From the NCBI GenBank assembly GCA_030789695.1, contig CM061141.1:278573871-278637870 (forward strand): a stretch of 64,000 nt of DNA, given 5' to 3'. Source of the DNA: Scilla litardierei (lineage: Eukaryota; Streptophyta; Magnoliopsida; Asparagales; Asparagaceae). The position numbers and the translations under genes are program-made. Positions within the stretch are counted from its first letter, which is position 1; every line of letters starts with the position of its first letter. Positions 10,313 to 62,384 of this stretch are shown in pieces. A model generated the notes under the pieces. That model saw nothing but the letters and a program-made list of their open reading frames with translations. It had not been told where the DNA came from and did not search any database.

Positions 10313-10366
10313 CTCTCACAGATTTCTATCCGTTGGTGAATGACCTAACTTGTTTTTATGGGACCC

Positions 10367-10374
10367 TATAAATA
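10367..10374 (+). promoter_or_regulatory. Sirevirus LTR TATA box
   Basis: TATAAATA within GACCCTATAAATACG, 55 bp after the array; the copy in the 3' LTR is at 21096-21103. Likely core promoter of the genomic RNA. Confidence 0.75.
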
Positions 10375-11128: not shown

Positions 11129-11140
11129 TGGTATCAGAGC
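11129..11140 (+). other. Primer binding site (initiator tRNA-Met)
   Basis: TGGTATCAGAGC two bases after the 5' LTR, complementary to the 3' end of plant initiator tRNA-Met, as usual for copia elements. Confidence 0.95.
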
Positions 11141-11153
11141 CAGATACTCAGCT

Positions 11154-16562: not shown

Positions 16563-16797
16563 GATTCATATTTCATTCAAATATCTTGCATGCTATTATA
16601 TTTCGCGAATGCTAGATTTATTGAATTTTTGGGAATTTTATGTGATTTGTTCGAATTTATTGCTCGAAATCGTATTTCAATGTCGTATTTAAGATTTCGA
16701 CGTTTTATGGGGTAATTTAGATGACTAATGAGAGAGTTATGATGTTTCATCCAAGTGGTTTGTGAAGAGAAATCAATTATCAATTTTTGGACTCTTC

Positions 16798-17180
16798 TAG
16801 TCAGTCTAAGTTCATTTGTCAACCGACTAGATGCTCATCTAGTCGGTCAGCAAGTGAACTCAGACCGACTAGATCAAGCTTTTATATAACTCCTATCTTT
16901 TTCTTTCGTTAGCCGGTCATAGTACACTTACCGACCGACTAGATTGAAAACTAGTCGGTCAGTGAATATACAGCGACCGACTAATTCTTGCCCTAGAAAT
17001 TCATCTGTGCCTCTGTTTCGACTTAGTCGGTTCAAGCTCATTGACCGACCGACTAGATGGTAATCTAGTCGGTCAGTACTTGAACTGTGACCGACTAAGT
17101 GGTTTAGGGCATTTGTGTATTTTTGCTTCCAGACCAACTTAAACTCACTTTCATTCGACTAAAACTCACTTTTAGTCGGT
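16798..17180 (+). repeat. Internal ACCGACTAG palindrome array ahead of the extra ORF
   Basis: Three units of the LTR design (outer CTTAGTCGGT / ACCGACTAA around an inner ACCGACTAGAT ... CTAGTCGGT hairpin) lie in the 3' internal region, not in an LTR. A TATATAA lies inside it at about 16882. It is followed by a CT-rich leader-like stretch (17200-17330) and the extra ORF. It may act as a second promoter. Confidence 0.85.
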
Positions 17181-17457: not shown

Positions 17458-19113
17458 TTGCTTGCTTGTACTCGTCGTGCCTCGACCATGGCAAAGACGA
17501 GGATTCCCATCGCCTCTTCCGGGGCTTCTCCTATGACCGTAGGGCCTTCCGACCCTAGGAATCCCCCTAAGCCTAAACGTCGTGCCAAGTCTACCCAAGC
17601 TTCCCCGTCTTCGCCTCCTCTGAAGAAGCAGAGGACGGCGACCGTCAAGCCCCGCAAATCTAAGACCAAAAATCCCATACTCCACTCACCGGCTACTCCT
17701 CCCGATTCCGACACTGAATTTGTGCCTGAGGATGAGCCTATCACTAGGGAACCCACTCCTCCACTCCGTCCTAGGACTCGCCAGCCAAAGGGAAAGGGCC
17801 CAATGCCAGCGGGGGGTGTTGACATATCGTTGTGTCGCGATGACCCTTTGTGTCTCGCGGCCTACAACCGTATTGAACACTGCCCGATGTTATTGGAGCA
17901 CTACGTCCAGTTTTCAGATTTCCTTGGCTTAGCCGATCTCCTGTCCTATAGTGGTCTCCTTGATTATCTCCGCTATGATCCTAAGGCCAATCCCAAACCG
18001 TATCCTCGCCTTGTGAAATTGTTCTATGCCAATCGCGTTCGAGGCCAGTACGATGCCAGCCACTCCATTGAGACGACTGTCTTGGGAACTCCTATAGTTC
18101 TCACGGCAGAAATCTTGGGGGAGATTCTTGGTTGCTCGTCCTGTGGTCTCCTTCCTTCGAACATTTCGGTCGATGATATTTCCTCCTTGGATCAGTCAAT
18201 TCTTGCAGATATCTTCCAGGTTATCCCCTCCGCATTCATTGGTGTTCCATCGAAATCTTTCAAGCCGAATGCGTGGGTTCTTAACCTAATCTTGAAGTCA
18301 TGTCTTCTCCCTAAATATGGATCCTCTTCTCTTCCATCCCAGCCGTTCTTGAAATTGATCTACGCTCTTTTCTTGGGGTGCGAGATTAATTGGGCTCGCG
18401 TGATACTCGATAAGATGGACTCTTTCGAGTGTATACGCAAGACCAATAAGTCTGCGCATATTCCATATCCTTGTCTGTTGACCCTTGTGTTTCGTCATTT
18501 CCGAGTCCCTCTCCCTCCTGACGATGAGCGTCCCTTGGGTACTCCTCTGAACGCGACGGCCGTGAAGAAATCTCTAGCGGCGCTTCGTCACGTACAGAGG
18601 TCTACCACATCTGCTTCTCAGGCGACTCCCTCTGCTGCTGGTGCCCCCTCTCGTCCTGCTACTTTGGATGATGTCGTACGGATACTTCGTCGGCACGAGT
18701 CTCGCTTGGCTCGTACCGAGGAGGTAGTTTGCCGTATGGCTCGTCAGATGGGCATTGATCTTCCTCCGTCCGTGTCTGAGGACGAGGAGATGGACGATGA
18801 GGAGCTTGACGAGCTTGTCACTTATTTTGCCCGTGGCGATGAGGCCACTGCTGCTGCTGCTACATCTTCTGCTCCTGGTGTTGGCACCTCTACCGGTGCT
18901 CTAGAGACCTCTGCTACAGTAGTTCAGACTTCTGAGCCTGCTGCCTCTCCTGCTGACACTCCTGTTGTGCCTGCTGATGTTGAGCCTGTTGTTGTTGCTT
19001 CCACACCTACCCCGACGATCCCGTCTGTTGAGACACCTCTACTCCCTGCAGAGCCTGAGTCCACTCCGTCGACTAGACCCACGGAGACTGCAGATCCAGC
19101 CACTTCCTCGTGA
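17458..19113 (+). CDS. Sirevirus extra ORF with plant transposon-protein-like domain
   Basis: 551 aa, fully open; a second Met at 17488 in better context could be the true start. Residues 1-125 are basic and Pro/Ser-rich with nuclear-localisation-like clusters (KPKRRAKS, PPLKKQRTATVKPRKSK). Residues about 150-365 form a globular domain (FYANRVRG, LTAEILGEILG, SAHIPYPCLLTLVFRHF) resembling the 'putative plant transposon protein' domain found in extra ORFs of large plant retrotransposons. An acidic patch (SEDEEMDDEELDEL) and an Ala/Thr/Pro/Ser-rich tail follow. I see no signal peptide or membrane span, so it does not look like the env-like ORF described for SIRE1. Function unknown. Confidence 0.75.
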   Translation: MLACTRRASTMAKTRIPIASSGASPMTVGPSDPRNPPKPKRRAKSTQASPSSPPLKKQRTATVKPRKSKTKNPILHSPATPPDSDTEFVPEDEPITREPTPPLRPRTRQPKGKGPMPAGGVDISLCRDDPLCLAAYNRIEHCPMLLEHYVQFSDFLGLADLLSYSGLLDYLRYDPKANPKPYPRLVKLFYANRVRGQYDASHSIETTVLGTPIVLTAEILGEILGCSSCGLLPSNISVDDISSLDQSILADIFQVIPSAFIGVPSKSFKPNAWVLNLILKSCLLPKYGSSSLPSQPFLKLIYALFLGCEINWARVILDKMDSFECIRKTNKSAHIPYPCLLTLVFRHFRVPLPPDDERPLGTPLNATAVKKSLAALRHVQRSTTSASQATPSAAGAPSRPATLDDVVRILRRHESRLARTEEVVCRMARQMGIDLPPSVSEDEEMDDEELDELVTYFARGDEATAAAATSSAPGVGTSTGALETSATVVQTSEPAASPADTPVVPADVEPVVVASTPTPTIPSVETPLLPAEPESTPSTRPTETADPATSS

Positions 19114-20103: not shown

Positions 20104-21865
20104 TGTTGAATATTGGACTCCCCGGATTTGGTTTTGATGATGAGCAAACATAAATAATCCATGAACTAACAATTTGTGAGCGCAGTATTGGAGATCGTCG
20201 CCAATTTCACGAGAACATTCAAAGCGACATCTCAACACTTCCCAAAGCTCGTATTCATGCCTAAAGCTTCGTTGAAGCTCTTGCGCCGTTTTGGAAGTTA
20301 TGAAGATTCAATCGAAGCTCTCGAAGACCGTTTATTAAGGTTTTATTTATAGTCTTTTAGCTTCGATATATAGAATGTTAAGCCTTGAGTATATCTTACG
20401 TTTATATCTTCATTACGCTCATTTCGTAGCTTTAGGATCCTTGCACAACTTCATTCTAGCTTCCTCGAAGCATCGCGCTTCGATTCGGACTTTATTGTGC
20501 ATGTTAGTTGGTACAAGAACAAGTACTGACCGACTAGATGGTGATCTAGTCGGTCGGCAACTGTTCTTGGACCGACTAGTTTGATTCCTTAATTTCTTGG
20601 ACTTTACTGTTTACAGTTAGTCGGTCTACGTTGACTCACCGACCGACTAGTTTGTGAACTAGTCGGTCAGTGATGCTTCTTTGACCGACTAGTTGTGACT
20701 TACTGTTCATGCTAAAATTCTCCTAAGCTACTGTTTATCGTTAGTCGGTCTAAGAACGTTTGGTGACCGACTAGTTGACAATTTAGTCGGTCAACTTTTG
20801 TTCTTGGACCGACTAAGTCACTTTGTACTCAGACTAATTCTTTTTGCTCTTAGTCGGTCTACGTTCACTGACTGACCGACTAGTTGTGAAACTAGTCGGT
20901 CAGAAAGTCTTCTTGGACCGACTAGATTTCTAGGTCTAAATTTCTATCTCTTCTCAGATCTACTCTTAGTCGGTCCACGCTGTTTGACTGACCGACTAGT
21001 TGATGAACTAGTCGGTCAGTGATTGTTCTTTGACCGACTAACTCTCACAGATTTCTATCCGTTGGTGAATGACCTAACTTGTTTTTATGGGACCCTATAA
21101 ATACGAACCTAGGTCATTTCTATCTAGGTGAGAGCTGCCATTAAGAGATTCATTGAGTTCTAAAGAGATAGCCATTCTCACTCTAATCTAAAGCTCTCTT
21201 CCTCACAAGAAACCCATTCTCTCTCATTCCTAGATCTAGAATCCATCTAGAGAGAAGGTTGTTCTTGGTGAGCTCTTCAAGCTATTACTTGATCCAAGTC
21301 TCCAAATCATTCCTAGGCACCGATTGCTGGTCATTTCCTTGGTGCTAGGTCTTGGTGACTTCATCTTCCTCAAATCCTTCATTTCACCATTTGGGTAAGA
21401 AAAACTCAAGGTATAGGATTTTGTGGTAAGATTGTTTATTTCATATTAAACTCTTTAATATTGCTTTGTGATTCTCTCGGTTGTGAGAGAAGGTTGTGAT
21501 CCCGGGTTGTGGGATTCACGTTTGCTATTGCATGTATGATTTGATCTTGTGAAGGTTTTTCACAAGATATTCATAGTGGAAATCTTGAGTTAGGGTTTCT
21601 AACTCAAGTATCCGGAGGGGATCCGGGTGGTTGGGACGTAGGATCACCGGGAACAAGTCGGGGAGACTTGGGTGGATCCGAACCCATTAACATCATTTGT
21701 TTGCATTGTTAATTTTGTGTTGTCATTCAATTTAAGCTTCCGCAAATTGATTTTGGTAGTTGTTTGCAATTTAATTTGGAATTATACTCCTTATTATTTT
21801 AAAGTACTATTCACCCCCCCCCCCCCCCCCTCTAGTACTTGTGCAGTAGCTGGTAGGGCATTACA
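20104..21865 (+). repeat. Sirevirus 3' LTR
   Basis: 1762 bp; the 10-bp excess over the 5' LTR is a longer C tract (17 against 8) and one T. The palindrome array is at 20528-21042 and the TATA box at 21096-21103. Confidence 0.95.
20528..21042 (+). repeat. Nested ACCGACTAG palindrome array, 3' LTR
   Basis: Same architecture as 9799-10312 with only a few substitutions. Two differences (a motif restored to TGACCGACTAA at about 21031, and GGACCGACTAAG at about 20806) fall in motif copies or their flanks. Confidence 0.95.
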
Positions 21866-22156: not shown

Positions 22157-23443
22157 GTAAATTTCATCTTTTGGGCTCATCGAAATGGGACAGTTGTGTG
22201 GATGAGCAGAAGATGTTACGATATGTGGCTCATCGAAATGGGGCCGTTGTGTACCAAGCTCACTCCGCTCTATAAAAATTTGTCAGCCTTCATATTTTTT
22301 GATGCCATCCATCCATCAGATAGAATATACAAGTTGGTTGCCGAGTAATCCATGAATAATGTTATGCCCCAGTTGTATTGATCTATATTACATATGCAAA
22401 TTGTTCCGTAATGTTGTGTAACAAAAAGAAATTGATTTTTATATTGATGATATTTCATGTGTAACAAAGAGAATTATCAGACAATGTCCACGTGCAAATT
22501 ATATATTCAGCAAATTTTCAAGAAATTATTGGGAGTTGCAAAAGGAACTTGCATTTATATTTATGATATTTCATGTGTTTAACAAGGTGAATACTCATGA
22601 AATGTGGTGTGTGTGTGTGTGTGTGTGTCATTAACTGTTTCCTTTGAGTGACATGGCCAGATGATTGCTTCCCCTAAATGTCGATGCCTATCATTAGCCG
22701 TTTAATTTTAGCAGCCACGACTGTCACAACATATGGCTGAAATTAAGGTGATTCGGACTCTCCTGAATCAAAAGAGTAGCTCATCCTGCTGTAACCAAAA
22801 GAGTATATGGCTCATCCATACTAACAGCACTTATTTATTATACAAAAGAGTATGCCACATCGCCACACGGGACAACCACATCACCCTAATGACCCAAAAG
22901 TCACCAAAAAATCCCCTCACCATAATGACCCAAAAGTCACCAAAAATCCCAACAATTACACACTCCAATCAAATAACACCCAAAAACAAATCTAAAGAGC
23001 ACACCCCAAGCTCAAATAACACCCAAAAATAAATCCAACTTGGTGCTCGCGTCAAAGGCGCCCGTGTCGCTGCTAAAATTTTTTACGCTAATTTGTTATT
23101 CCGCGCTGAAGGCGCCCGCACGTTTTTCTTGCTGAAGGCGCTTGCGCCGAATTTGTTGTTCCACGCCGAATTTGCCGAAGGCGCTTGCGCCGAATAATGT
23201 TATGCCCCAGTTGTATTGATCAATAATACATATGCAAATTGTTCCGTAATGTTGTGTAACAAAAAGAAATTGATTTTTATATTGATGATATTTCATGTGT
23301 AACAAAGAGAATTATCAGACAATGTCCACGTGCAAATTATATATTCAGCAAATTTTCAAGAAATTATTGGGAGTTGCAAAAGGAACTTGCATTTATATTT
23401 ATGATATTTCATGTGTTTAACAAGGAGAATACTCATGAAATGT

Positions 23444-23477
<34 letters not shown>

Positions 23478-24206
23478 ATTAACTGTTTCCTTTGAGTGAC
23501 ATGGCCAGATGATTGCTTCCCCTAAATGTCGATGCCTATCATTAGCCGTTTAATTTTAGCAGCCACGACTGTCACAACATATGGCTGAAATTAAGGTGAT
23601 TCGGACTCTCCTGAATCAAAAGAGTAGCTCATCCTGCTGTAACCAAAAGAGTATATGGCTCATCCATACTAACAGCACTTATTTATTATACAAAAGAGTA
23701 TGCCACATCGCCACACGGGACAACCACATCACCTTAATGACCCAAAGTCACCAAAAAATCCCCTCACCCTAATGACCCAAAAGTCACCAAAAATCCCAAC
23801 AATTACACACTCCAATCAAATAACACCCAAAAACAAATCTAAAGAGCACACCCCAAGCTCAAATAACACCCAAAAATAAATCCAACTTGGTGCTCGCGTC
23901 AAAGGCGCCCGTGTCGCTGCTAAAATTTTTTACGCTAATTTGTTATTCCGCGCTGAAGGCGCCCGCACGTTTTTCTTGCCGAAGGCGCTTGCGCCGAATT
24001 TGTTGTTCCACGCCAATGGAGCCCGCGCCGTATTTTTTGTTCCACGCCGAAGGCGCCCGCGCCGAAGTTGCCCGTGTCGCTAAATATTTTTATGTTAATT
24101 TGTTGTTCTTTTAAATTTTGGTCGTGCAAATATTTTTTTGGGGAACAAAGATTTTGTGGGGGAAAATCTTAAATAAACCGTGCCCGCGGGCACGGGTTAT
24201 GACTAG
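22157..24206. other. Helitron A 3' part: no gene, duplicated and repeat-rich
   Basis: After the last AHA1 exon there is intron-like sequence, then a direct tandem duplication (22354-24013), then short repeats of the type GAATTTGTTGTTCC(G/A)CGCC(GAAGGCGC) that run into the terminal hairpin. Confidence 0.7.
22354..24013. repeat. Direct tandem duplication, about 0.84 kb x 2
   Basis: Copy 1 is 22354-23191 and copy 2 is 23192 to about 24013. Both run from GAATAATGTTATGCCCC through a GT microsatellite to GCGCTTGCGCC. They are nearly identical except for GT tract length (about 11 against 17 repeats) and a few bases, so the duplication is recent. It contains no coding sequence that I recognise. Confidence 0.92.
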
Positions 24207-36519: not shown

Positions 36520-37200
36520 CTATTTTGAGTCATAACTCATAACGGGTAGATTGATACCAAGAGGGTCATAATGGATGTGATATATAACTGCAATTTCCTT
36601 TGATCCAGGGATAAATTCACACCCTTGAGTCTGGATATAAAGACTCATAACTTCAAATATATTTGAATCTTTTAGAGATAAACTCAAATTGGGGTATATA
36701 TTAAAATATACCAGTTTGCTCTTAAGATAAGGGCAATGGAAGAAAAATGGAGTAAACTTCTTTATGTTAATCTTAACTCCATTAAGAGAGTGTGACCAAG
36801 ATTGTGTCCAACCGGAGCTTCGATCATCATGAAGAGAAGCGAATAATGACATATTAAGTCCTCTTGGCGTTAGGGGTTGAAACGTAATTTGGACTAGTCC
36901 AATATGGACATAATCATATCGACCCATATATGGTTCGATATCTTTATGATTGAGCAACTGTATAGTCTGCTCATTGTGATCAATAATATTGGTTTTTTCT
37001 AAAAGCCTGTAGTCAAAGAAACCAATTTTTTCACTAGTAGGGATATCAGGTATTGAGTTGATAAAACTCTTTGGAGTATTACTCTTCATCTGAACAGCCT
37101 GATTACCAGAAGCCGAATGATCAAGAGTCGAAGTATGACTTCTTCTCTGCCAACCCTCCTTCCCTAGAGAGAGAGAGAGAGAGGAGTCAAGATGGTTCAT
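36520..37200 (-). pseudogene. Caulimovirid movement-protein-like fragment
   Basis: Open on the minus strand within a 251-aa ORF (36520-37275). About 37090-36540 resembles the 30K-superfamily movement protein of caulimovirids (segments 'YVHIGLVQITF' and, near the end, 'GSKEIAVIYHIHY'), which in a virus lines plasmodesmata for cell-to-cell spread. It starts about 60 bp after the RNase H region ends, separated by a (CT)n run at 37164-37184, and is followed by the promoter, an order not expected for the family. Confidence 0.65.
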
Positions 37201-38508
37201 GAGTACCCTGTAAAAACTTACGAGTGAGAAAATCAGGTAAATGATCATCACGACCACGAATAAATTGAATATCAAATTGGTACATGGATAATTCTACATG
37301 CCATCAAGCAAATATTTGTTTAGAAACAAGATTCTTAACATCTTTTTCAATAACAGATTTAGCAGAGCTACAATCTATTTTTAAAATAAATTGCTGATTG
37401 AGAATATCATCTCGAAATTTATGAAAGCATTTAATAATAGCTAACATCTCCTTTTTAATGGTGGAATAATTAAATTGTGCTTGATCCCATTTACCAGAGG
37501 TAAACCGAACTAATTGCTCTTTAAGAGTAATAGGATCAATCTGTTTGAGATACCTCCAAAACCAATGGTAGACGCATCCGTCTCAACAATCTTAGACCAA
37601 TGTGTATGAGCAAGATGTACACAAGGTAAATATTTAACATTAAGTTTGACTGTTCGGACAGCGGCAGTATGTTGATCTATCCAAGGGGAAGCATTCTTCC
37701 TTAATCTACTATATAAAATAGCAGTGTCAGATGCAAGATTATGGTAATAATCTGTAACATAATTGAGTGCACCAAGAAATCGTTGCAACTGTTTAGTATC
37801 ACTAATGATATCATGGAATTTAGAAGCAAATTCAATACTTCTATCAATATGAACTATAATTCCTTTGTGAATATTATGACCCAAAAATCTTATTTGAGTC
37901 TGGAACAATTTCATCTTTGGGGCTGATATAGCAAGCCCATTTCGAACTGCTAAGTTACGAAAAACATCTAGATGCTTAATATGTTGATCAAAGGTCAGTG
38001 AAACGACCAAAACATCATCTATGTATGACAAGATGAAATCTGTATAAGGAATAAATATGGTATTCATAATATTCTGGAACTCAGAAGGAGCATTCTTTAG
38101 TCCAAATGGCATTACATTCCATTTAAAATGGCCGAAAGGAACAACAAATGCCATTTATAGCAATCTTTTTCTTCAATAAGTATCTGATAATATCCAGATT
38201 TAAGATCGAATTTAGAGAATATTTTCGCATTATTAATGCGATTGAGTAAATCTCTTTTGTTGGGAATAGGGTACCTAATCCACTTTAAAACCGCATTTAA
38301 GGGTTTATAATTAATAACAAGACGAGGAATACCTCTTTCTTTCTCAGCATTGATGTTGACATAAAATGTTGTACAACTCCAAGGAGAGTATGACTTCCTT
38401 ATGAGTTTCCTCTCAAGTAAAGGACTTATTTCTTTTTTACAAAGATCAAGATATTCCTGATTCATCTGGCATGGCCTAGATTTAGTAGGAATGTCTTTTC
38501 TTTGAAGT
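37200..38508 (-). pseudogene. Caulimovirid reverse transcriptase and RNase H fragment
   Basis: Minus strand. 38465-38112 covers the RT fingers/palm ('GIPRLVINYKPLNAVL', 'FSKFDLKSGYYQI'). 38154-37510 covers the palm with the catalytic YIDD (about 38020) and thumb, then an RNase H start (ETDAS). RNase H continues in another frame to about 37215, with a stop near 37300. Domain order RT then RNase H without integrase is caulimovirid. At least two frameshifts. Confidence 0.85.
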
Positions 38509-38513
38509 CATCT
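38509..38513. repeat. TSD CATCT (left of solo LTR)
   Basis: Same five bases at 41099-41103. Confidence 0.93.
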
Positions 38514-41098
38514 TGTAACGACTGGTATTTGTCTGTGTTTTGACTATTATATATATATTCTGGTTGTTCCCTCCCTTGTGTGTTTTCCCCTGTTGGACGT
38601 TTTCTTTCAGTTCTTCCGATCTTTTTCTTCGATGAGCTTCATAGCATCCATATCTTAGAGCTAGGTTGATCTTAAAAGCCATAAGAATCTTTCCGAAGCC
38701 ATGCGCTTCAATTCGACACTTTTTGTGTATTTTAGTTGGTTCAAGAAGGAGAACCAACCGACTAGATTGCAATCTAGTCGGTCGGCAACTCTTCAAGAAC
38801 CAGCTAGTTCATCTTGATTATTTCAGCTGAGTTACTGTTTACCCTTAGTCGGTCTGAGCACATCCATCGACCGACTAGTTCCCAAACCAGTCGGTTAGAA
38901 CTTGTTCTCAGAACGACTAATTCTGAGATCTTTCTGACAGCCGAGTTACTGTTTACGGTTAGTCGGTCAAAGAACAACTATCGACCGACTAGTTGATAAA
39001 CTAGTCGGTTAGAGTTTCTTCTCAGACCGACTAACACTTTGTGCTTATTTTTCTATCATATTCACCCTTAGTCGGTCAATGAACATTCACCGACCGACTA
39101 GTTTCCAAACTAGTTGGTTGACGAGCCTTCACAGACCGACTAAATCTGTCTACCCTGTGTCGACCCTGTTCACGGTTTGACTTTTAGTCGGTGTCAGTTG
39201 GACGACCGACCGACTAGTTCCCAAACTAGTTGGTCAACCACTCTTCACTGACCGACTAATATGCCCAGAAACCCTAGGTTAAGTCGTAGCCGCCGCTTTT
39301 TATTTCTATTTAAACCATATATGTTTTCACTTCTCCTCTCACTTTTGCTATCCGATTTTCTTCCCCAATCATCCCCCAACCTTCCTCCTACCCTTCCTCA
39401 TCCTCACGTGCTCCCTTTCACCCCTCATTGCGTCGGCACCACCCCGCGAGCCGCCGGCCGACCCCAAAACCCCCTCAAATTCTCTTTTGCTCCAGTTTTC
39501 CCCTATATTCTCCATTCTACAGATCCGATTATACCTCAGCCGTGAGGAGTTCCCTTCAGCCGCAACTTCTTCCTCGGATCGGTCTTCCGTTACCGTGCTA
39601 AGCTCAGATTTGGTGACGGTAATCCGGATACGTCGAGATCCTCTCCTACCTGCAAATTCGTAGGCGTCTTGGATCGTCGATTCTTCCGCTTCACATACGG
39701 TTAGTGTTCCACCCTTAATTTTCCCATAACCCACACTATAATTTAGAAAACCTAATAAAAATGGATTACTAGACGTCGTAGGATTTCGGTTACAAATCTA
39801 GATGAGATCTTTCAGTTCTGATTTCTGCTTTGGCCATAACAGCGAACCCATTTCCCCGTAGAGTAGCGATTTTTGAGACGAACTCTCGTCGATCGTCATC
39901 ACCGGAACCAGGCAAGTGAAACTTGCCAACCTTGTTTTAGGCCATGCCTTAGGCCATTTCTTTGCTTTTAGCGTGAAAGAGACTAGACCGTGAAATGATA
40001 GCGGTCTAGGCGCAATTTCAAATTCTAGCTTGACAACGAAGCTAGAATTGCCTTTTGTCATGTCATGTCATGCATTTGCCTGTCACGTTTAATTTCTCTA
40101 ACGGTACGCATTTTTAATTGAATATCTGCCATGCATTTGCATTCTTACATGCCATTTGATTTGTATGTTGCATCGTCGCACACGCTACCAAATACTTGTA
40201 TAATCCGTGTTTCCGGCTAGGCACCTGCTATGCGGGCATAACCCTACGCCATACTTGTTAAAAACACTTCCTGGCTCGTGATCCAGAGGCGGGCCACCTG
40301 TGTTGGTTGATAACCAATGCCCGATACACATGGAGGGGTAGGGATAAACGGTCACTTGAGCGTAAGAGTTGGCCCGTACAGCCTCTCTAGCCAAAGGGCG
40401 GAATCTCTGTGCACGACGTGCTTACTATACATGTACTTGTCCTTGCGAATGTTTACTTGTTTCCCTTGCTTCCATGGCATGTTTACTCCTTGCCATGTCA
40501 TACTTGCTGTGTTTACTTATTTGCTGCACATCTTATATATATTCCATGTCATGCACACTTTAGAATTGCTAGGTTACTTTTACCTTTCTTTTAGTTTCCT
40601 TGCACAAAGTCTTGTAGACTTTGTTGACATGTGCCCATTCTCTTTGGGTGTCGCATGTTAGTTGCTGAGCCAGAGACCGTAGCTGGGGATGACGAGTTCG
40701 TGGAGTTTGAGCCTGATTCCGTTGCTGACGTGGAGTACGAGGACACCGGTGACCAGTCCTAGTGTTCCTTCGTCGTTTCTCTTTCTTAGTCTGTTGTTAG
40801 CTTGTCGGTGAGTAGCACCATTTTTTGTTAGTTGCTTTCATTGTTGGCCATGATGGGCCTTTCTTTTGGACTCTTTTATGAGCCTAGTGGCTTTTCTGGT
40901 TGTTGGACAATTTTATTGGACATTGAGATGAAAATTTTATTTATTTGCCTCTTTCTATTATTGTTATCTTTGTTCTGTGTCACATTACAAGGATCTGCGT
41001 GATATTACTAGACGCTTTACAGGCTGGATCCTCACAGCTCCAAGCCTGAGCGGGCCTCGCCTCGCCTCGCCTCCATTTTTGGGAAGCGGGTCGTGACA
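38514..41098 (+). mobile_element. Gypsy solo LTR (TGTAACG...GTGACA family)
   Basis: 2585 bp, TGTAACGACTGG to GGGTCGTGACA, flanked by CATCT on both sides, no internal coding. Ends match those of the giant-LTR element (TGTAACGG ... GGCGTGACA), so it is a related family reduced to one LTR, presumably by LTR-LTR recombination. Contains an ACCGACTAG array (38756-39260), a TATTTAAA at about 39308 and a CT-rich leader. Confidence 0.88.
38756..39260 (+). repeat. Nested ACCGACTAG palindrome array in gypsy LTR
   Basis: Opens with a lone hairpin (ACCGACTAGATTGCAATCTAGTCGGT, written here only by position 38757-38782), then four units: outer TTAGTCGGT / ACCGACTAA around inner ACCGACTAGTT ... AACTAGT(C/T)GGT. 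Motif, inner spacing and the 'ACTGTTTAC' word before several units are the same as in the Sirevirus LTR (9799-10312), although this is a Ty3/gypsy LTR. Confidence 0.93.
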
Positions 41099-41103
41099 CA
41101 TCT
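41099..41103. repeat. TSD CATCT (right of solo LTR)
   Basis: Matches 38509-38513. Confidence 0.93.
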
Positions 41104-41856
41104 TCATACGGAAGAGACACAATATGACATTTTCTATCCCAAAATGCATTAAGGATATAACTACAGACAGTTTTATAAAAACGGTCTTCAATCTGGGTTA
41201 TTAACCATATCCTCTTTTTAATTTGCTCTTCAATTTGAACAAATGAGACTTCTTCTTTAAGAAAATTAATCTGTCTTTCTTTTAGAAAGATATCCTTGAC
41301 CTCGTTTAATATACGAGTCTGGGGATCAGTTATAAACTGAAATAGTACTCATTTTCCATTATAAGTGGCTTGAATACCATATGTGTCTATCTTCTGCATA
41401 GGCATAATATTATGCAGAAATGGTGTTCCTAATATGATGTGTTGTGAAAGATTCTTCACAAGAACACATGGTATAGGAATACAAGTATTTTGAACACATA
41501 TATGAGCTGAAGGTAGCTTGAATCTTACTTCAAGTTGATTACCTCCTGCACCACTCAAAGATTGCGTGGTTGGCTCAAAGAATTTGGAAGGCACAATTTA
41601 TTCACGAATGCAGTTAAGATCTGCACCACTATCAATTAGAGCTATAAGATCTAAATAAATACTTGTTTGGATATAACCAAAGTCACATTGATGTACCATT
41701 TTTGATATGTTACTTGCTGTAACAAATTCAGAAATTCATTTTTATGAGATATCTCGGCATTATGAATGCTTGATAGATCATGTTGAGGAATGTCCTCCTT
41801 ATCCATTTTAGAGAGAATATTATTCTCATGTTTTAGAAGTTGAATCTCTTTATAGA
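41104..41856 (-). pseudogene. Caulimovirid protease region fragment
   Basis: Minus strand. The pepsin-like retroviral protease active-site motif D-S-G-A-D lies at about 41628-41642, just before the 81-aa ORF 41594-41349, which continues the domain to a conserved-looking 'HIILGTPFLHNIMP' end. The stretch 41855-41690 is the linker upstream of the protease. A stop lies at about 41600 and others near 41345 and 41665. Interrupted at 41856 by the giant-LTR element. Confidence 0.8.
41852..41856. repeat. TSD ATAGA (left of giant-LTR element)
   Basis: Same five bases at 62385-62389. Confidence 0.92.
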
Positions 41857-42394
41857 TGTAACGGTCGCTTTCCGACCTTATGATTTTTCTACGTGCACGT
41901 GCTTTATCGTGCACGTATTTTATTTGGCTATTTCTGAGCTCTGGCATATGTGATACGATATGCCGTTGCGATCGTTTTGGGGTGTTCGATTTTATTGTAA
42001 TTTTTGGGAACGTCGTTTCACGGCTCGTTTTCTCGCAAAACGACTTTGAACGATAGGGGCGTTTTAGTCATTTGACTCAAAATGCCGTTTCCAATTTTAC
42101 GTAAATTCTTGGTAGGAGTTACACACGATCAGGCTCTGTAGATCTGTGCGTCTCATCTCCACGATCGCCACGGTATTTTCGGATTATTTTTCTGACGCCC
42201 GGATTGCGAGATATCACCCGGATAAACCTCGACCGTCGATCTCCCTCAATCAGATTCAAATTTCGAATTGTTGCCAAATCTGGCGATATCTGGCTATTAA
42301 TTTGTTTAAAATCTTTCCTAATCTTCTTCTCTAATCTCCCCTAGACTTACCCCTACTTGTACACCCTCTACCTCTTTATCTATCCCCTTTTAGC

Positions 42395-42401
42395 TATAAA
42401 T
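42395..42401 (+). promoter_or_regulatory. TATA box and telo-box-like leader of giant LTR
   Basis: TATAAAT; the 3' LTR has it at 48803-48809. About 40 bp downstream is AACCCTATAATCCCTAACCC and then TAACCCTAACCCTAAAA (42459-42475). Confidence 0.6.
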
Positions 42402-43483
42402 CTTATAGATATATATCAAATTATTATTATTATATAACCCTATAATCCCTAACCCTAAGTTAACCCTAACCCTAAAATTCACAGCCGCCGCCACACAAAT
42501 TTCCGAGGAGAGAGAGAGGCTCTCTCTTCTCCCTCTCCCGTACACAAAAATTTTCCCCCTCACGCACCTCTCGCATCCATGACGAGGCCACACCGCAGAC
42601 CGCCACCCGCTTCTCCGCACCTCCTGATCGCCAGCTCCCCGCCTCCTCGGCAGCCTCCCCGCGCCGTCTCTCTCCCTCTCTCTCGCCCTCAGCCGCCAAG
42701 CACCGATCGCCCCAAGCCCGAGCGCCGACCGCCGTGACCCGATCGCCTCAAGCCCTCGCATCGAGCCGCCGTCTCCCCCTCACCCGATCCCCCTCACGGC
42801 CTTAACTCCGACGCCGGCCCCCCTCACAACTCCGCCATGATCCGACGCCGACCCCTCGTGATCCATGACGTCCCTGAGCCCCGATCACCGCCGCGATTCT
42901 CACAAGGCCGCTGCCCTTGCCCCCCTCCCCCCTGCTTTTATCCGCTGTCGTACGGTTCTCGTCGCCGCCACCGAGCAAATCGCCCCACCGCCGCTGACCC
43001 CGATCCCCGTGTAGCGCCGATCTCCGCCCGCGTCCTCCTCCTTAGCGCCGCCGCCCTCACGGTTCCTCGCCCGCCTGCGCCCGCCTGCGACCCCCGACGC
43101 CACCCTCTCGTACTCAACGGCCGCCAGAGCCCCCAAGCCCCTGTGCTCCTCCTCCTCTCAGAGCTCACGGCCTCCTCCCGCGCAGAGCACAGAGAACCGC
43201 CTCCCTCATCCCTTTTCCTCCGTCGCGCCCTCATCCGCAGCTCGCTGCCGCACCGATCCACCGCGATCCAGCGCAGCCCCGCGTCGTCTAACCCCGATCA
43301 GATCCCCCTACGAACCTGAGTGCCGCCACACCTCAGCTCTCCTCCCTTGTCAGCCAGCCCACTCCCTACCGCCAAGAGCAGCCCCAAGCTCCGTCCCCAT
43401 TCTCGATGCCACACCGACACATCAGATTTCCCCGACCGTCGTCGATGTCTCGATTTCCAACCATCAAAACAGGAAATCTCATA

Positions 43484-43948
43484 TCAAGCCTTTGCTGACC
43501 CCTCCTAAGAAAGCTGCAAAGACCCTAGTTGCTGAAAGCCATGCTGATGATATCGGTTTACAATGTAGTGGATGGAAAATTGAAGGTATGGAGATAGTGG
43601 GAACATTACTGATGGAACCACAATTCTCCAAGCGATCAAATCAACTGTCGACCCTTCGACCCAAGTCGTACACCCTGAGAATCCAGACGCCAACCTTGTT
43701 AAAAGCAATGGATTTCTCTTATGCTATTATTGTGGTTAAAGAAGTCCTATCTGACGAACTTATGGGGACAACTTCAACCTGACGCTATCGGAACTAGGCT
43801 CGAGCACAATTCAAAGTGCTTACAGAGCCGTAAGTGTGTTGTAATCATCATCTCTGGAAGGCCTCTCGTTATCGAACCGTATCTGCCATCAGCGGATGCC
43901 CTTGTCGCCGCTTAGCTCCCTGGACCTGAAGGCCAAGGAGTCGCAGTC
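43484..43948 (+). pseudogene. GH3 beta-glucosidase/exoglucanase fragment captured in 5' LTR
   Basis: Frameshifted piece of a plant glycoside hydrolase family 3 enzyme (cell-wall beta-glucan hydrolase type). Visible words in successive frames: 'PKKAAKTLVAESHADDIGLQC', '[17 protein letters not shown]', '[11 protein letters not shown]'-like text, then '[19 protein letters not shown]' and '[11 protein letters not shown]'. These are consecutive parts of the C-terminal alpha/beta sandwich domain with no recognisable introns between them. A TAG near 43916 is TGG in the other LTR copy. Not functional. Confidence 0.78.
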
Positions 43949-44699
43949 ACGCACCGATCATCAGCCACTTCGCTGCGCTACCCGCAGCCGTTACGACCCT
44001 GAGGCGATCCCGAGACGACCCTTACAGCGCTACCTGCAGTCGGGGACACGAGCACCGCCACTGTTTCCAGACCCGACGCCAGATTCACGGTTAATCATCA
44101 TTCAGGTTGGTCCCCCTAACTCGTAGTAAACCCACACTGTAGCAAACTGAACCTTAACTAAAACTGGACAACAATAATTAAATTTACTTTTCCGCACCAG
44201 TAAAACGCTGCTCACCGTAGAAATCAACCATCAGACAAATTTTCTGTGCATATAGGGTAGTGGTCGATCTAGGCTGATTAAACACCAAAATGTGACTTTC
44301 GACGATTAGGGTAGTCCCGACAACCTAGAAACAAAAACTAAATAGGATTATTGAAAAACGCGACCTGACACCGTCGAAGTGACACTTTTCAGACGGACTT
44401 TTGCTGACGGGACATTTGGACGAGACGCTCCGGGAGGACGACACACTCGCCACTGCAGGCAAGTGTATCCACTTACACTTTTGGCTGTTCTTAGGCCTTA
44501 ATTTGTTAGAACTGTTAATTGTGAACAAAGAGAACCGGACGTGAAATGATAGCGTCCAGGACGCCCTTGACGGCTCAGACTTGACGACAAAGTCTGAGCC
44601 CAACAACAACAACTTTTGACATCATAGGACTATCTTGTGTGTGCGTGTGTGTGTGGACACCCTAGAATAACCTTTCCTGTCTTGTCACGTCCCGTCCAG

Positions 44700-44860
44700 T
44701 CTTACAAAGCCCAGAGGGAAATAGGGCACTCTCTGAGTGATCCCTTGTCTTGTTACACAGCCCAGAGGGCAATAGGGCACTCTCTGAGTGATCCCTTGTC
44801 GTGATACACAGCCCAGAGGGCAATAGTGCACTCGCCAAGCTAGAGCGAGTGATCCCTTGT
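44700..44860 (+). repeat. 52-bp minisatellite, about 3 copies
   Basis: Unit core CAGCCCAGAGGGCAATAGGG followed by CACTCTCTGAGTGATCCCTT and GTCTTGTTACA. Three units here; four in the 3' LTR (61404-61612). Confidence 0.9.
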
Positions 44861-45625
44861 CTTGTCTTGTCTTGTCATGTCTTGGGTTTGGGGTAGGGTT
44901 GAGCGTGCGCACGGTAAGAGGGTCTGATCCCCCTCGAACCGTAAGGCGTGAACCCTTTCATGTCACACTTGTCTTGTCTTGTCCCGCCATGTCCCAATTT
45001 GTCTTGACACCTGTTAGGTTAGTCCCGTAGTTTGGTAGCACACGCTACGACTACTACTTGTCACGTTTTAATTTCCTGCTGCGTTTACTTTTTGTTCCTC
45101 TGTTATAACCTCGGCATGCTAATCAACCAGTAAACCGTTGTTAAATAGTCGATACACTTGCAGTTTGGTCTGACCCTTTTTGTAGACCTTACCTGACGTA
45201 CAGTTCCTTCTTTTGGTGCTGTACGTCAGGTGTTGAGCCAGAGTACGTCGACGAGACAGACTTACCGGAGTATGTGGAGCCCGAGGACGTCAACATAGAG
45301 TACGTTCTGACGAGGACCAGACCTTGAGGACTTTTTGGTCGCCACCTTCATAGGTTACTACTTTTAGTTTGCTTTTTCGTTAGTTTGTAGCCATGCTTAG
45401 GCTTTCCTCTCTTTAGACTTTTGTACTCGCTGGATATTAATTTTTATTAATGAATGCAAATTTCTTTCTATACTTTCTGTTGTTTCGAACTTTATAAATG
45501 CAAGAACCTGAAAGTTTTAAAATGGTACCCCTATAGACGCTTATTGGGTCCGAGCTTCACAGCTCTGGCCTAAGCGGGCCTTAGTCACGCTTCGCCTCCG
45601 TATTTTTGGGAAGCGAGGCGTGACA

Positions 45626-48264
45626 GGTTTTAGTGGTGGCCCATGCAGGTCATGCAAAAGTTCGGAACAATAAGAGTACCGCATTCATTTAATATCCATG
45701 TACATGTCTAAATTAGATTTACCCAGTCATAGATAGTATGAAGATTTAGGTAGACGTTCCAATTTGATAGTCAGACACCTTGGTTAAGAATTAGTCATCC
45801 TTGTCTTAGGATACCAGAGTAGCTCTCACTTGGCTCTGGCCGTGTTAGATTTCTAGAGCCTTTCTTTTAGTCATTCGCTCGGGTCCATCGACTTCGGGCC
45901 CAGCAGAACTAACCTTGATTCTCTTAGGAACCTTCCCATTAGATCTTGGTTACAGTCTAGCTCATTAGAAAATCTTAGTGTCGAGCTCTACTGATCGTTA
46001 GATGACCCGATAATTAGAATCCCTAACTTCTAGCGTCTTCCTGATCATTACCCTTTCGTGTTATCGACCGTAGAGTTCCATCATAGCTTCGTGAGTCGTA
46101 TCCTGAGTGTATCCATCATGCGATCTTTTTCCTTTCTCTCAATTCACGTAATCGTTCCTGACGAGTATCGTTGATCCTTCGAGTCTTTTCCTCTGCCAAG
46201 TCTGCTTCCTCTAAAAGTATTTTCGAAATTCCTTATTAAGTCCTTCGCTCAGCTTAATTTCTTTGAAACCCTCTTGAAATTTTCGTTGTTATTATCTCGT
46301 ACTTATTTTCAAATCGGTATCTTTCATATTTTCAATTTTAAAACCTTGTTAACATTTTGATAATTCAATTTATACTTTTCTAGACTACAAAATCTATTTC
46401 TAACCACTTACCGTACATACTTTTAGAATATTTTCTAAACTAGAGGGAACTCCAATTTTTTTATTATTATTATATCGGTTCTATGTTCTTCGTGATCACA
46501 TTTCAAAATCCTTGTGTAAACCTATCTTCATTTGCAAAACAATCGTTTCTCACCCTACCCATCCCTCCTGCGTCTTACTTTTTTTCCAAAATTTTAAATT
46601 TGCTACATCTGCCCACTTTTAAGTATATATATATATATTTAAAGGTATATGATACCATATTTTGCACAAAATCCTTCTTACATCGTTAAATCATTTTTAG
46701 CAATATTCTTGTCCCGTCCATCCGACTATCTTCTTATCCTCGCCTTACATGACTTCGTTCTTTCGATCTTGTTTCGTGTCGCTTTTGGTTTCGGTCTCCT
46801 TTTATGTAGACATCAGCGCCTGTAGCTGCTTATGTCATCCCTAGCTAGTAGTGGGCTCTCTGGTTTGTGATGACGTCGTGATGTATATATAGGTATAGTG
46901 TGTAGACCTGTATAAGTGTGTTACCTTTAGGATCTTGATGATCGTCTCTTGTCTTGTATGCATACTCAGTGTGGACCGTAATATACGTATGGAGTGGTCT
47001 GAATGATAGTATTCATATAGGTGTGAATAGCGTCATAGCAGACAATTCCTTAGACTTAGTCTTTTGTACTATTGAATAGCTTATCTTGGCTGTATGTGAT
47101 TGTAACAAAACTTTTGTTTTCCTTTAAACCAAATCTTTAAAGTTTTTGAAACTAGCTTACAAGATCACAAATCACTTATCCTCCCTCATCCATTACCACA
47201 ACTCCACACGTTTTTCCAAATGTTTTAAAATGTGTCATTGGCCTTAAGTTTTCCTTTCTCTTCTCTTCTTTCTCCCTTAGAAATGTTATGTTTATTGTTG
47301 TTATATTATTGGGACTTGCTATTATTGTTATAGGATTTTGTTTGCGGGTAGGCTCAGGGTGAGATGAGATTTATTATAGTAATAATTAATTGATTTGGAA
47401 CACAAGGATATTGGATTAGATTTCTTTGGATGAAAAGAATGTGATGTCCAAGACTTATTTACAATACCGATGTGTGATGGACTCAATGGAGAATTCTGGT
47501 CGGATGAAATTATATGCAGGGAGATGATAACTTATCAGACTTGAGACTTAGACGAGTGGTAGATAGGAGTAGCTGCGGAGTATAGTATGAGTTAGGGTGG
47601 TCATAAGGATGAGTAGAGCATTTAAAGCATCAAGACTTGATTGTTAAGTTGACGTGAGAAGACATTGGGAATAACACGACGTGTTGAGATAAATGGATGG
47701 TTAGATAGTCGGACTTAATATTGGTTGGGATTAGTTACAGTGAGTAGGATAAGATGTGAGTTTGATAGTTCAATTATTTGGCGGATAAATTTATGGGAAG
47801 ATATGACAAGGAATGTATTAAGGACACGGCGAATGTTGATTTGTGAAAGGTGTTATAAGATAGACAAAGTTTTTGTCTTGGATTGGTGTTCGACTAGAAA
47901 ATTATTTTAGCGATTGAAAAATATTGGGAAGAGTTTGAGAAAATTAAGGATGTTACCGAGCAATGATGTTTAGTGGAGTGGTATGGTAAGAGAAGATGAT
48001 TATTATTCTTTTATGAGGACTTGGAGTTGGGAATTTAACAGCAGTGATGGGTCTATAGTTAAGTATTAGGATGTGAGATTAGTCGTGACGTTATCCAGTG
48101 AAAAGAAGGATTATGATGGAATATTTGAGGAACGATGTTGAAATTATAGGATTAGGGACCATTGTGTGGAGGATGAGGGTTATAGGCTTAAGTATTTATG
48201 GATTTTATAATTAGTCTTAGTAAAAGTGATTCCAAGGACGGAATCATTTCTAAGGTGGGTAGAA
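45626..48264 (+). other. Internal region of giant-LTR element, non-coding
   Basis: 2639 bp without a convincing ORF and no recognisable gag, RT or integrase word in any frame. Starts GGTTTTAGTGGTGGCCC after the LTR, which does not match the initiator tRNA-Met PBS; the primer is unclear. Ends in GGACGGAATCATTTC then TAAGGTGGGTAGAA (48251-48264), a PPT of the form used by TGTAACG-type gypsy elements. Confidence 0.75.
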
Positions 48265-49327
48265 TGTAACGGTCGCTTTCCGACCTTATGATTTTTCTAC
48301 GTGCACGTGCTTTATCGTGCACGTATTTTATTTGGCTATTTTTGAGCTCCGGCATATGCGATGTGATATGCCATTGCGATCGTTTTGGGGTGTTAGATTT
48401 TATTGTAATTTTTTAGAACGTCGTTTCACGGCTCGTTTTCTCGCAAAACAACTTTGAAAGATATGGGCGTTTTAGTCATTTGACTCAAAACACCGTTTTC
48501 AAATTTACGTAAATTCTTGGTAGGTGTTACGCACGATCAGGCTCCATAGATCTGTGCGTCTCATCTCCACGATCGCCCCGGTATTTTCGGATTATTTTTC
48601 TGACCCCCGGATTGCGAGATATCACCCGGATAAACCTCGACCATCGATCTCCCTCAATCAGATTCAAATTTCGAATTATTGCCAAATCTGGCGATATCTG
48701 GCTATTAATCTGTTTAAAATCTTTCCTAATCTTCTTCTCTAATCTCCCCTAGACTTACCCCTACTTGTACACCCTCTACCTCTTTATCTAACCCCTTTTA
48801 GCTATAAATCTTATAGATATATATCAAATTATTATTATTATATAACCCTATAATCCCTAACCCTAAGTTAACCCTAACCCTAAAATTCACAGCCGCCGCC
48901 ACACAAATTTCCGAGGAGAGAGAGAGGCTCTCTCTTCTCCCTCTCCCGTACACAAAATTTTTCCCCCTCACGCCCCTCTCGCATCCACGGCGAGGCAACA
49001 CCGCAGACCGCCACCCGCTTCTCCACGCCTCCCGATCGTCGGCTCCCCGCCTCCTCGACAGCCTCCCCGCGCCGTCTCTCTCCCTCTCTCTCGCTCTCAG
49101 CCGCCGAGCACCGATCGCCCCAATCCCGAGCACCGACCGCCGTGACCCGATCGCCTCAAGCCCTCGCATCGAGCCGCCGTCTCCCCCTCTCCCGATCCCC
49201 CTCACGGCCTCAACTCCGACGTCGGCCCCCCTCACGACTCCGTCGTGATCCGACGCTGATCCCTCGCGATCCACGGCGTCCCCGAGCCCCGATCGCTGCC
49301 ACGATTCTCGCGAGGCCTCCGCCCTCG

Positions 49328-49367
<40 letters not shown>

Positions 49368-50637
49368 CTTTCATCCACTGACGTACGGTTCTCGTCACCG
49401 CCGCCGAGCAAATCGCCCCAACGCCGCTGACCCTGATCCCCGTGCAGCGTCGATCTCCGCCGGCATCCTCCCCCTCAACGCTGTCGCCCTCGCCGTTCCC
49501 CGACCGCCTGCGCCCGCCTGCGACCCCCGACGCCACCCTCTCGCACTCAAAGGCTGCCAGAGCCCCTAAGCCCCCGTGCTCCTCCTCATCTTAGAGCTCA
49601 CGGCCTCCTCTCGTGCAGAGCCCAGAGCGCCGCCTCCCTCATCCCCTTTCCGCCGCCGCGCCCTCATCCGCAGCTCGTCGCTGTGCCGATCCGCCGTGAT
49701 CCAGCGTAGCCCCGCGCCGTCTAACCCCGATCGGATCCCCCTGCGAACCCGAGTGCCGCCGCACCTCAGCTCTCCTCCCTTGTCGGCCAGCCCACTCCCT
49801 ACCGCCAAGAGCAGCCCCAAGCTCCGTCCCCATTCTCGATGCCACACCGACACATCAGATTTCCCCGACCGCCGTCGACGTCTCGATTTCCAACCATCAA
49901 AACAGGAAATCTCATATCAAGCCTTTGCTGACCCCTCCTAAGAAAGCTGCAAAGACCCTAGTTGCTGGAAGCCATTCTGATGATATCGGTTTACAATGTA
50001 GTTGTTGGAAAATTGAAGGTATGGAGATAGTGGGAACATTACTGATGGAACCACAATTCTCCAAGCGATCAAATCAACTGTCGACCCTTCGACCCAAGTC
50101 ATATACCCTGAGAATCCAGACGCCAACCTTGTTAAAAGCAATGGATTTCTCTTATGCTATTATTATGGTTAAAGAAGTCCTATCTGACGAACTTATGGGG
50201 ACAGCTTCAACCTGACGCTATCGGAACTAGGCTCGAGCACAATTCAAAGTGCTTACATGGCCGTGAGTGTGTTGTAATCATCATCTCTGGAAGGCCTCTC
50301 GTTATCGAACCGTATCTGCCATCAGCGGATGCCCTTGTCACCGCTTGGCTCCCTGGACCTGAAGGCCAAGGAGTCGCAGTCACGCACCGATCATCAGCCA
50401 CTTCGCTGCGCTACCCGCAACCGTTACGACCCTGAGGCGATCCCGAGACGACCCTTACAGCGCTACCCGCAGTCGGGGACACGAGCACCGCCACTGTTTC
50501 CAGACCCGACGCCAGATTCACGGTTAATCATCATTCAGGTTGGTCCCCCTAACTCGTAGCAAACCCACACAGTAGCAAACTGAACCTTAACTAAAACTGG
50601 ACAACAATAATTAAATTTACTTTTCCCACACCAGTAG
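48265..50637 (+). repeat. 3' giant LTR, first part
   Basis: Aligns with 41857 to about 44214. TATA at 48803, telomere-like repeats at 48842-48884, a C run of about 38 (49328-49365) where the 5' LTR has short mixed C runs, GH3 fragment at 49917-50381. Breaks at about 50637. Confidence 0.88.
49917..50381 (+). pseudogene. GH3 glucosidase fragment, 3' LTR copy
   Basis: Counterpart of 43484-43948 with the same frameshifts; it keeps a sense codon (TGG) where the 5' copy has TAG. Presence in both LTRs at the same place means the capture predates this insertion and has been copied with the element. Confidence 0.78.
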
Positions 50638-61396: not shown

Positions 61397-62384
61397 GTCC
61401 CGTCCCGTCTTGCACAGCCCAGAGGGCAATAAGGCACTCTCCGAGTGATCCCTTGTCTTGTTACACAGCCCAGAGGGCAATAGGGCACTCTCTGAGTGAT
61501 CCCTTGTCTTGTTACACACCCCAGAGGGCAATAGGGCACTCTCTGAGTGATCCCTTCTTGTGATACACAGCCCAGAGGGCAATTGGGCACTCACCAAGCT
61601 AGAGTAAATGATCCCTTGTCTTGTCTTGTCATGTCATGTCTTTGGTTTGGGGTAGGGTTGAGCGTGCGCACTGTAAGAGGGTCTGATCCCCCTCGAACCG
61701 TAAGGCGTGAACCCTTTCGTGTCACACTTGTCTTGTCTTGTCCCGCCATGTCCCGATTTGTCTTGACACCTGTTAGGTTAGTCCCGTAGTTTGGTAGCAC
61801 ACGCTACGACTACTACTTGTCACGTTTTACTTTCCTGCTGCGTTTACTTTTTGTTCATCTGTTATAACCTCGGCATGCTAATCAACCAGTAAACCATTGT
61901 TAAATAGTCGATACACTTGCAGTTTGGTCTGACCCTTTTTGTAGACCTTACCTGACGTACAGTTCCTTCTTTTGGTGATGTACGTCAGGTGTTGAGCCAG
62001 AGTACATCGACGAGACAGACTTACCGGAGTATGTGGATCCCGAGGACGTCAACATAGAGTACGTTCTGATGAGGACCAGACCTTGAGGACTTTTCGGTCG
62101 CCACCTTCATAGGTTACTACTTTTAGTTTGCTTTTTCGATAGTTTGTAGCCATGCTTAGGCTTTCCTCTCTTTAGACTTTTGTACTCGCTGGATATTAAT
62201 TGTTATTAATGAATGCAAATTTCTTCCTGTACTTTCTGTTGTTTCGAACTTTATAAATGCAAGAACATGAAAGTTTTAAAATGGTACCCCTACAGACGCT
62301 TATTGGGTCCGAGCTTCACAGCTCTGGCCTAAGCGGGCCTTAGTCACGCTTCGCCTCCGTATTTTTGGGAAGCGGGGCGTGACA
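61397..62384 (+). repeat. 3' giant LTR, second part
   Basis: Aligns with about 44690-45625 of the 5' LTR and ends GGGGCGTGACA. About 475 bp of LTR (5' copy 44215-44690) is missing between this part and 50637. Confidence 0.88.
61404..61612 (+). repeat. 52-bp minisatellite, about 4 copies
   Basis: One more unit than in the 5' LTR (44700-44860). The last unit in both carries the variant CACCAAGCTAGAG / CGCCAAGCTAGAG. Confidence 0.9.

Follow-up and report, generated by a model that had tools for sequence, protein, structure and literature searches.

Two unrelated kinds of retrotransposon in Scilla litardierei carry the same array of nested palindromes in their long terminal repeats (LTRs). Both occur in a single window (the whole 64,000-nucleotide stretch analysed here, positions 278,573,871 to 278,637,870 of contig CM061141.1 in assembly GCA_030789695.1), where one array-bearing element is a Sirevirus of the Ty1/copia superfamily and the other a solo LTR of a Ty3/gypsy chromovirus family. 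The arrays suggest that a control switch passed from one kind of retrotransposon into the other and that selection has since maintained it. The favoured reading, with a probability of about three in four, is that a homologous promoter-proximal module moved between the superfamilies, landed 5' of a TATA box and has since been retained, probably via a host factor. LTR superfamilies are usually treated as separate, with promoters that evolve independently, whereas here a whole U3 module is common by descent.

Structure of the palindrome module

The solo LTR (38514-41098, on the plus strand, as are the Sirevirus parts and the neighbouring LTR below) has the termini TGTAACGACT...GGTCGTGACA and is flanked by the target-site duplication (TSD) CATCT at 38509-38513 and 41099-41103. 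Its array (38732-39259) comprises five units, starting at 38732, 38845, 38959, 39068 and 39184, and is preceded by a leader (38694-38731; a CGAAGC..GCTTC box and the bases after it) whose sequence is common with the Sirevirus LTRs. A TATA-like box, TATTTAAA, lies at 39307-39314, 48 bp past the array. The array of the Sirevirus 5' LTR (9375-11126; TSD GGTGT; primer-binding site TGGTATCAGAGC at 11129) occupies 9775-10312, with units at 9775, 9888, 10012, 10121 and 10237; it begins 400 bp into the LTR and is followed after 55 bp by a TATA-like box at 10367, while the copia copy of the leader, placed by alignment with that of the solo LTR, lies at 9737-9774. The 3' LTR (20104-21865), which differs from the 5' LTR by 14 substitutions and 10 gap columns, has its array at 20504-21041. 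A third Sirevirus array, of three units and without a leader (16797-17098), stands upstream of an open reading frame (ORF) in the env position (17458-19113; PF20167, Transposase_32).

A unit measures 76 bp and forms a two-tier palindrome from four ACCGACTAR / YTAGTCGGT sites of alternating orientation. Exact copies of the 8-mers ACCGACTA and TAGTCGGT are concentrated in the arrays (62 of 65 in the window); the other three are at 17173, just past the env array, and at 27320 and 56925. The outer arms of unit 0, TTAGTTGGT...ACCGACTAG, have an identical left-arm substitution in the copia and gypsy window copies. The shared block, made up of the roughly 55-bp leader and five units, measures about 565-570 bp and, in the window LTRs, ends 48-55 bp 5' of the TATA-like box.

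The original prediction, made from the letters of the window, rightly placed nested palindromes in the gypsy solo LTR and in both Sirevirus LTRs. The spans that it gave for the latter (9799-10312 and 20528-21042) are nearly exact but delimit the arrays, not whole LTRs, and the third array was missing from its list. It described a lone hairpin followed by about four units, of which the repeated units hold while the supposed hairpin is a full unit 0. In copia and gypsy arrays alike, the motif that it placed before the units (ACTGTTTAC or ACTGTTTAT) stands ahead of units 1 and 2, but not of all four.

Homology of the gypsy and copia modules

The gypsy and copia modules are homologous, having a common source rather than having evolved twice. 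In the window, blastn aligns 9737-10312 with 38694-39259 collinearly (69% identity over 585 bp, E 4e-56). The leader (38694-38747 against 9737-9790) is identical at 47/56 positions, a value equalled by 0/200 shuffles. Left of the leader, the likeness of the two LTRs is at chance level (130/200 shuffles as good), as it is over the whole side to the right of the array (75/200). Within the nearest 500 bp on the right, 5/200 shuffles did as well; the best match there is non-collinear, lies at unequal distances from the two arrays and is taken as chance. The earlier statement that the two LTRs are otherwise dissimilar thus stands for the flanks but not for the leader.

The internal order of the modules also agrees. 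With the gypsy array cut into four blocks and all 24 orders compared, the natural order came first by a small margin (368.5 against 364.0 for the next), and it came first for the spacers alone (52 against 44.5). The steps between units are 113, 124, 109 and 116 bp in the copia array and 113, 114, 109 and 116 bp in the gypsy array. A tree of the 13 window units places copia unit 0 and gypsy unit 0 together with 96/96 support, the sole starred branch of 10.

Units are very numerous in the 3.68-Gb assembly of this plant: the strict pattern for half a unit, TTAGTCGGTN{10,35}ACCGACTAG, has 216,826 forward and 215,890 reverse matches, with 0 for the reversed control. Because an intact unit matches once per strand, these figures correspond to about 216,000 units and not to the sum of the strands. 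The leader was counted genome-wide with the copia tag only (14,425 forward and 14,392 reverse matches; control 1 and 0), which is present in 12/14 copia and 0/18 gypsy LTR arrays; the gypsy tag is GTGCNNATTAGCCGGT. Arrays for comparison came from the first ~100 listed pattern places, all in C1:23-800 kb of one contig (20 stretches, with the cluster C1:740105-740611 left out). LTR similarity and coding sequence sorted them into 17 gypsy and 12 copia LTR arrays plus 4 pre-env arrays. With those of the window, 32 LTR arrays are listed; env arrays were left out of the leader tree, the module trees and the identity means.

The leader is recognisable in all 32 LTR arrays and in 0/5 pre-env arrays. 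Over 40 bp, its mean identity between gypsy and copia copies is 0.644 (234 pairs), against 0.262 for shuffled sequences (99.9th percentile 0.475). Three to six units were detected per module. Steps ending in 109,116 also occur in copia loci L018, L022, L023 and L030 and in gypsy loci L013 and L017, with near matches in L025 (110,116), L015/L016 (108,115) and L024 (107,116); this ending was seen neither in copia L028/L029 nor in the remaining gypsy loci. A TATA-like match is present in 29/32 LTR arrays, starting 43-47 bp (gypsy) or 54-66 bp (copia) past the array; no such match follows the arrays gyp_L027, gyp_L029 and cop_L026. To the right of the array, local scores among 11 representatives of the 32 are 12-24 for gypsy-copia pairs and 21-75 for gypsy-gypsy pairs; therefore, the shared block ends at the array end. 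Collinear order, matching unit steps, the shared leader and this 3' boundary support the movement of the module between superfamilies that the original prediction had proposed.

Gypsy membership of the module-bearing elements

Comparison of the solo LTR with its own assembly (7266 contigs) yielded 23 other matches that span positions 1-2585 of the LTR with 85-92% identity, as well as six pairs of places about 7.4 kb apart, counts that hold among the 75 matches listed from the 40 scored of 18,800 first-look candidates. The interval between two family LTRs at L031 matches gypsy gag, protease/reverse transcriptase and integrase. Pfam families in this element (gag, protease, RVT_1, RNase H, Integrase_H2C2, SH3_Tf2-1 and Chromo) follow the gypsy order, and its LTRs bear arrays. 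The terminal strings of the solo LTR recur in L011 and L020, both with gypsy coding sequence. Judged by its sequence relatives, the solo LTR belongs to Ty3/gypsy and is no isolated case.

The gypsy loci of the sample are L011, L012, L013, L014, L017, L019, L020, L021, L027 and L029. Gypsy coding sequence was found by tblastn in or beside the element at nine of these ten, with pieces of only 57 and 43 residues at L027 and L029, respectively, and chromovirus elements with such coding sequence carry the block in both LTRs. Pfam searches of the ORFs of L011, L013, L014, L017 and L019 returned gypsy-type domains in all five and a chromodomain in L011 only. L012 (C1:54000-63000) has a gypsy-type, array-bearing LTR pair with no gypsy or copia coding match between, was placed by its LTR and is possibly a non-autonomous derivative. 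On the copia side, LTR similarity placed L016, L022 and L030, none of which had a copia coding match; at L022 there is a weak match to gypsy integrase (28%), away from the array. Eight module-bearing LTR pairs in the sample are 96.9-99.0% identical over their aligned parts, so the module is carried by elements that were active fairly recently.

Beside the solo LTR lies a related LTR without an array (41857-45625); the 3' part of this neighbour and the 3' half of the solo LTR are collinear. Four collinear blocks between 39764-40763 and this neighbour were reached by 0-2/100 shuffles (7/100 for the next block), and the last 93 bp of the solo LTR are 76% identical to it. The array-carrying blocks match it at background only (31-71/100 shuffles); thus, the two LTRs differ mainly in the promoter half.

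Probable history of the proposed transfer

In unrooted module trees, all gypsy rows fall on one side of a branch. Support for this branch is 45/47 in the 32-row tree of the leader with unit 0; it is 68/73 for the last two units and 93/94 for the whole module (593 columns), each with 31 rows. The incomplete cop_L026 was left out of the latter two trees and of the identity means. The original prediction had asked whether copia and gypsy units intermix, and in these trees the modules do not do so freely. A single ancient transfer that would predate the split of the present families is favoured. A copia to gypsy direction is tentatively preferred, given that arrays of this sort have been described as a trait of Sireviruses (PMC2829016) and that the accessible text on Del LTRs of eudicots reports no CpG islands in them (PMC4029996).

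Several observations weigh against the favoured reading. The trees have no root, and the gypsy/copia split falls short of the program's star in all three; an alternative tree that joins copia to gypsy type 2 survives the approximately unbiased test (p-AU 0.117). The classified arrays are a non-random set from one stretch of one contig, with a unit density about twice the genome average. The leader is weak in the pairs L011-L023, L011-L025, L013-L023, L013-L025 and L021-L025, where local scores of 12-15 do not exceed the right-flank background. Window units beyond unit 0 group largely by element, and same-numbered units 1-4 are no more alike outside the motif (mean 0.486) than other pairings (0.483). 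These two results indicate turnover within arrays, and owing to the second, positional likeness past unit 0 rests on spacers and spacing. Lastly, the array-less neighbour of the solo LTR implies that the array is not in every LTR of its kind.

Some of these points leave room for two or more separate transfers between the superfamilies, a possible but doubtful history. Mean identity outside the motif, among 12 representatives of the 32 LTR arrays, is 0.66 within gypsy, hardly more than the 0.63 between superfamilies, and 0.73 within copia. In the same positions, the gypsy modules of L011/L012 reach 0.70-0.72 with copia L018 but 0.55-0.57 with gypsy L013/L017, and the tree that groups copia with gypsy type 2 would fit such a history. 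The unit-0 arm TTAGTTGGT is present in 14/14 copia LTR arrays and in 3/18 gypsy arrays (those of the window solo LTR and L012), the other 15 having TTAGCCGGT or TTAGCCTGT. Against repeated transfer stands the placement of the gypsy modules on one side of a branch in all three trees.

Conservation and possible function

The motif is far better conserved between the superfamilies than the bases around it. Gypsy x copia identity in motif and non-motif positions is 0.915 and 0.695 for unit 0, 0.970 and 0.585 for the penultimate unit and 0.960 and 0.654 for the last unit, means to which near-copies add weight and in which conversion within arrays could raise motif uniformity. Motif substitutions per base amount to 0.023 across the 18 gypsy arrays and to 0.015 across 13 copia ones. 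CpG transitions account for 4/7 motif substitutions in the solo LTR; one is common with the copia LTR, and the others fit decay by methylation.

In the proposed mechanism, the module would have moved in the past between Ty1/copia Sireviruses and Ty3/gypsy chromoviruses of S. litardierei. The likeliest routes would be a strand switch while co-packaged RNAs were being reverse transcribed, or ectopic recombination. It would have landed in U3, directly 5' of the TATA box. A host transcription factor probably binds the repeated sites and drives LTR transcription, which may be why both superfamilies kept the module. An enhancer recognised by a DNA-binding protein of the host fits the motif-biased conservation as well as the place, orientation, repetition and dyad symmetry of the sites. 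Selection for the binding of one host factor, the second alternative of the original prediction, is compatible with movement of the module, which it would supplement and not replace. The intact motif ACCGACTA contains ACCGAC, the dehydration-responsive element/C-repeat (DRE/CRT) core; for this reason an AP2/ERF protein of the DREB/CBF type is a first guess at the candidate factor, a six-base match being weak evidence.

A bolder version, offered tentatively, is that a portable promoter cassette circulates, with one host regulator or an element-supplied trans factor driving large copia and gypsy lineages via more than 200,000 units. If true, cross-superfamily capture of cis-regulatory sequence would be a regular route of LTR evolution.

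Selection might instead act on an RNA or single-strand hairpin (for packaging, dimerisation or as a small-RNA substrate) and not on a double-stranded protein site, which is unlikely. All 11 units tested fold more stably than each of 200 shuffles (z -6.1 to -12.2), and small-RNA excess has been reported for maize Sirevirus palindrome clusters (PMC10760457, citing Bousios 2016). Across the 13 window units, the full palindrome has a covariation score of 0.170, compared with a mean of 0.130 in shuffles (2/500 as high), and 27 cells are changed on both sides, compared with 18.8 (6/500). These changes fall chiefly between motifs, and the shuffles make no correction for the relatedness of units. However, pairs changed on both sides (14 against 11.5; 63/500) and further pair types (88/500) are within the shuffle range, and arm pairing beside the outer motif scores 77/130, where re-dealing gives a mean of 68.9 (p 0.04). 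The arrays are moreover 5' of the TATA box and would therefore lie outside the 5' end of the genomic RNA.

It is quite improbable that a protein encoded by the elements, for example by the env-position ORF, binds the arrays and counters silencing, and that gypsy elements exploit it. VANC proteins act in this way on the motif arrays of VANDAL transposons, which resemble the present case in that a trans factor reads arrays of a short motif in a mobile element; VANDALs differ in being DNA transposons whose factor is element-encoded. Besides the LTR array, another lies directly 5' of the env-position ORF, and the four pre-env arrays of the C1 sample extend this arrangement, but the gypsy ORFs scanned have no such domain, and Sireviruses without env also have such arrays (PMC2829016, Table 3, in the accessible text).

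Convergence, in which both LTRs would have independently amplified sites for one host factor, is strongly disfavoured and very improbable. It would account for motif sites that outlast the intervening bases, for units that partly group by element and for the lack of positional likeness of units 1-4 outside the motif. It does not account for a leader that is common outside the motifs, for collinear order and matching steps, or for unit 0, which groups across superfamilies and has the same substitution in both.

A Sirevirus fragment inserted or gene-converted into this single gypsy solo LTR, an explanation that the resemblance of the block to a Sirevirus piece within an otherwise gypsy LTR might invite and that the original prediction had named as fatal together with a motif confined to one gypsy copy, is refuted by the full-length relatives, six pairs of places among them about 7.4 kb apart, that carry the block, and further chromovirus families have it in both LTRs.

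Comparison with known systems

The closest described system is the repeated motif (RM) boxes of Sireviruses, and the original prediction was correct that palindromic LTR motifs are known there. According to the accessible text of Bousios et al. 2010 (PMC2829016), RM boxes are CGG-CCG palindromes located 200-400 bp into the LTR, 5' of TATA and of env; by database comparison they match mainly sites of stress-related factors, and promoter tests were called for. As here, the palindromes precede the TATA box within the first LTR half, and extra copies stand 5' of env. They differ in that they were reported as specific to Sireviruses relative to classic Ty1/copia elements, whereas here the same array is also in elements with Ty3/gypsy coding sequence, and in that the present unit is a two-tier, four-site palindrome every ~113 bp. 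The cis-region of maize Sireviruses (Bousios et al. 2016, as described in part in PMC10760457) likewise contains LTR palindrome clusters with strong predicted structure, described there within Sireviruses only.

On the gypsy side, the Del/Tekay lineage has LTRs of 1.1-4.4 kb, a U3 end like TGTAACACCC and, in U5 type A, GGG at -8 to -10 (Cruz et al. 2014, PMC4029996, as far as its text was accessible). Checked by hand, the solo LTR is within this length range (2585 bp) and its U3 end is identical to that sequence at 7/10 positions, while its U5 has T for G at -8. Its family may resemble Del/Tekay in being a plant gypsy lineage with long LTRs and a TGTAAC-type U3 end; the accessible text of that paper contains neither 'palindrom' nor 'repeated motif'.

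No report of a module common to Sireviruses and gypsy elements was found among the open-licence articles listed, and searches with the exact motif gave articles unrelated by title among the matches listed. Relative to the literature examined, what appears to be new is that the array extends beyond Sireviruses, is accompanied by a leader, sits in the same promoter slot of gypsy chromoviruses and reaches very high copy number. What Sirevirus palindromes do thus becomes a testable question: two unrelated elements with one module in one genome, and with many natural variants, permit a search for a shared factor and for a shared expression response.

Other features of the window

The Sirevirus encodes gag (11118-13394) and pol (13449-16562), with Pfam matches to Retrotran_gag_2, zf-CCHC, rve, RVT_2 and others. 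It is of copia type, with a PF14223 gag and, in the pol ORF, rve (207-307) preceding RVT_2 (554-798). Polypurine tracts precede the 3' LTR (AAGGGGGAGA at 19809 and 20093, plus two more GGGGGAG tracts). A C-rich integrase signal is near the LTR ends, at 21814-21830 in the 3' LTR (end 21865) and at 11084-11091 in the 5' LTR; the poly-C run is of unequal length in the two, 17 and 8, respectively.

Protein searches found plant relatives of the Sirevirus pol, without genomic context; the env-position ORF had 0 homologues at E <= 0.001 among the 7998 scored candidates of a large protein search. In viral contigs, two pattern scans gave one stretch each and no relative, the one read (L001) being an unrelated phage-like contig, and a pol scan gave 4 stretches that match a pattern, of which 0 encode a relative. 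Rfam had no match in 38500-41110.

The array-less LTR beside the solo LTR belongs to an element (41857-62389, TSD ATAGA) with LTRs at 41857-45625 and at 48265-50636 plus 61410-62384, the 3' LTR being split by a nested minus-strand element that carries gag and protease ORFs. No convincing Pfam family was found in nine pieces of its internal region (45626-48264, 2.6 kb; best E 0.046), so its superfamily is judged from LTR homology. On the minus strand at 36520-38507, abutting the solo LTR, ORFs with a viral movement protein (PF01107) and RVT_1 form an endogenous-pararetrovirus-like fragment. At 22354-24014, a repeat of about 824 bp occurs twice in tandem with 98% identity, and more diverged repeats extend out to about 25.6 kb.

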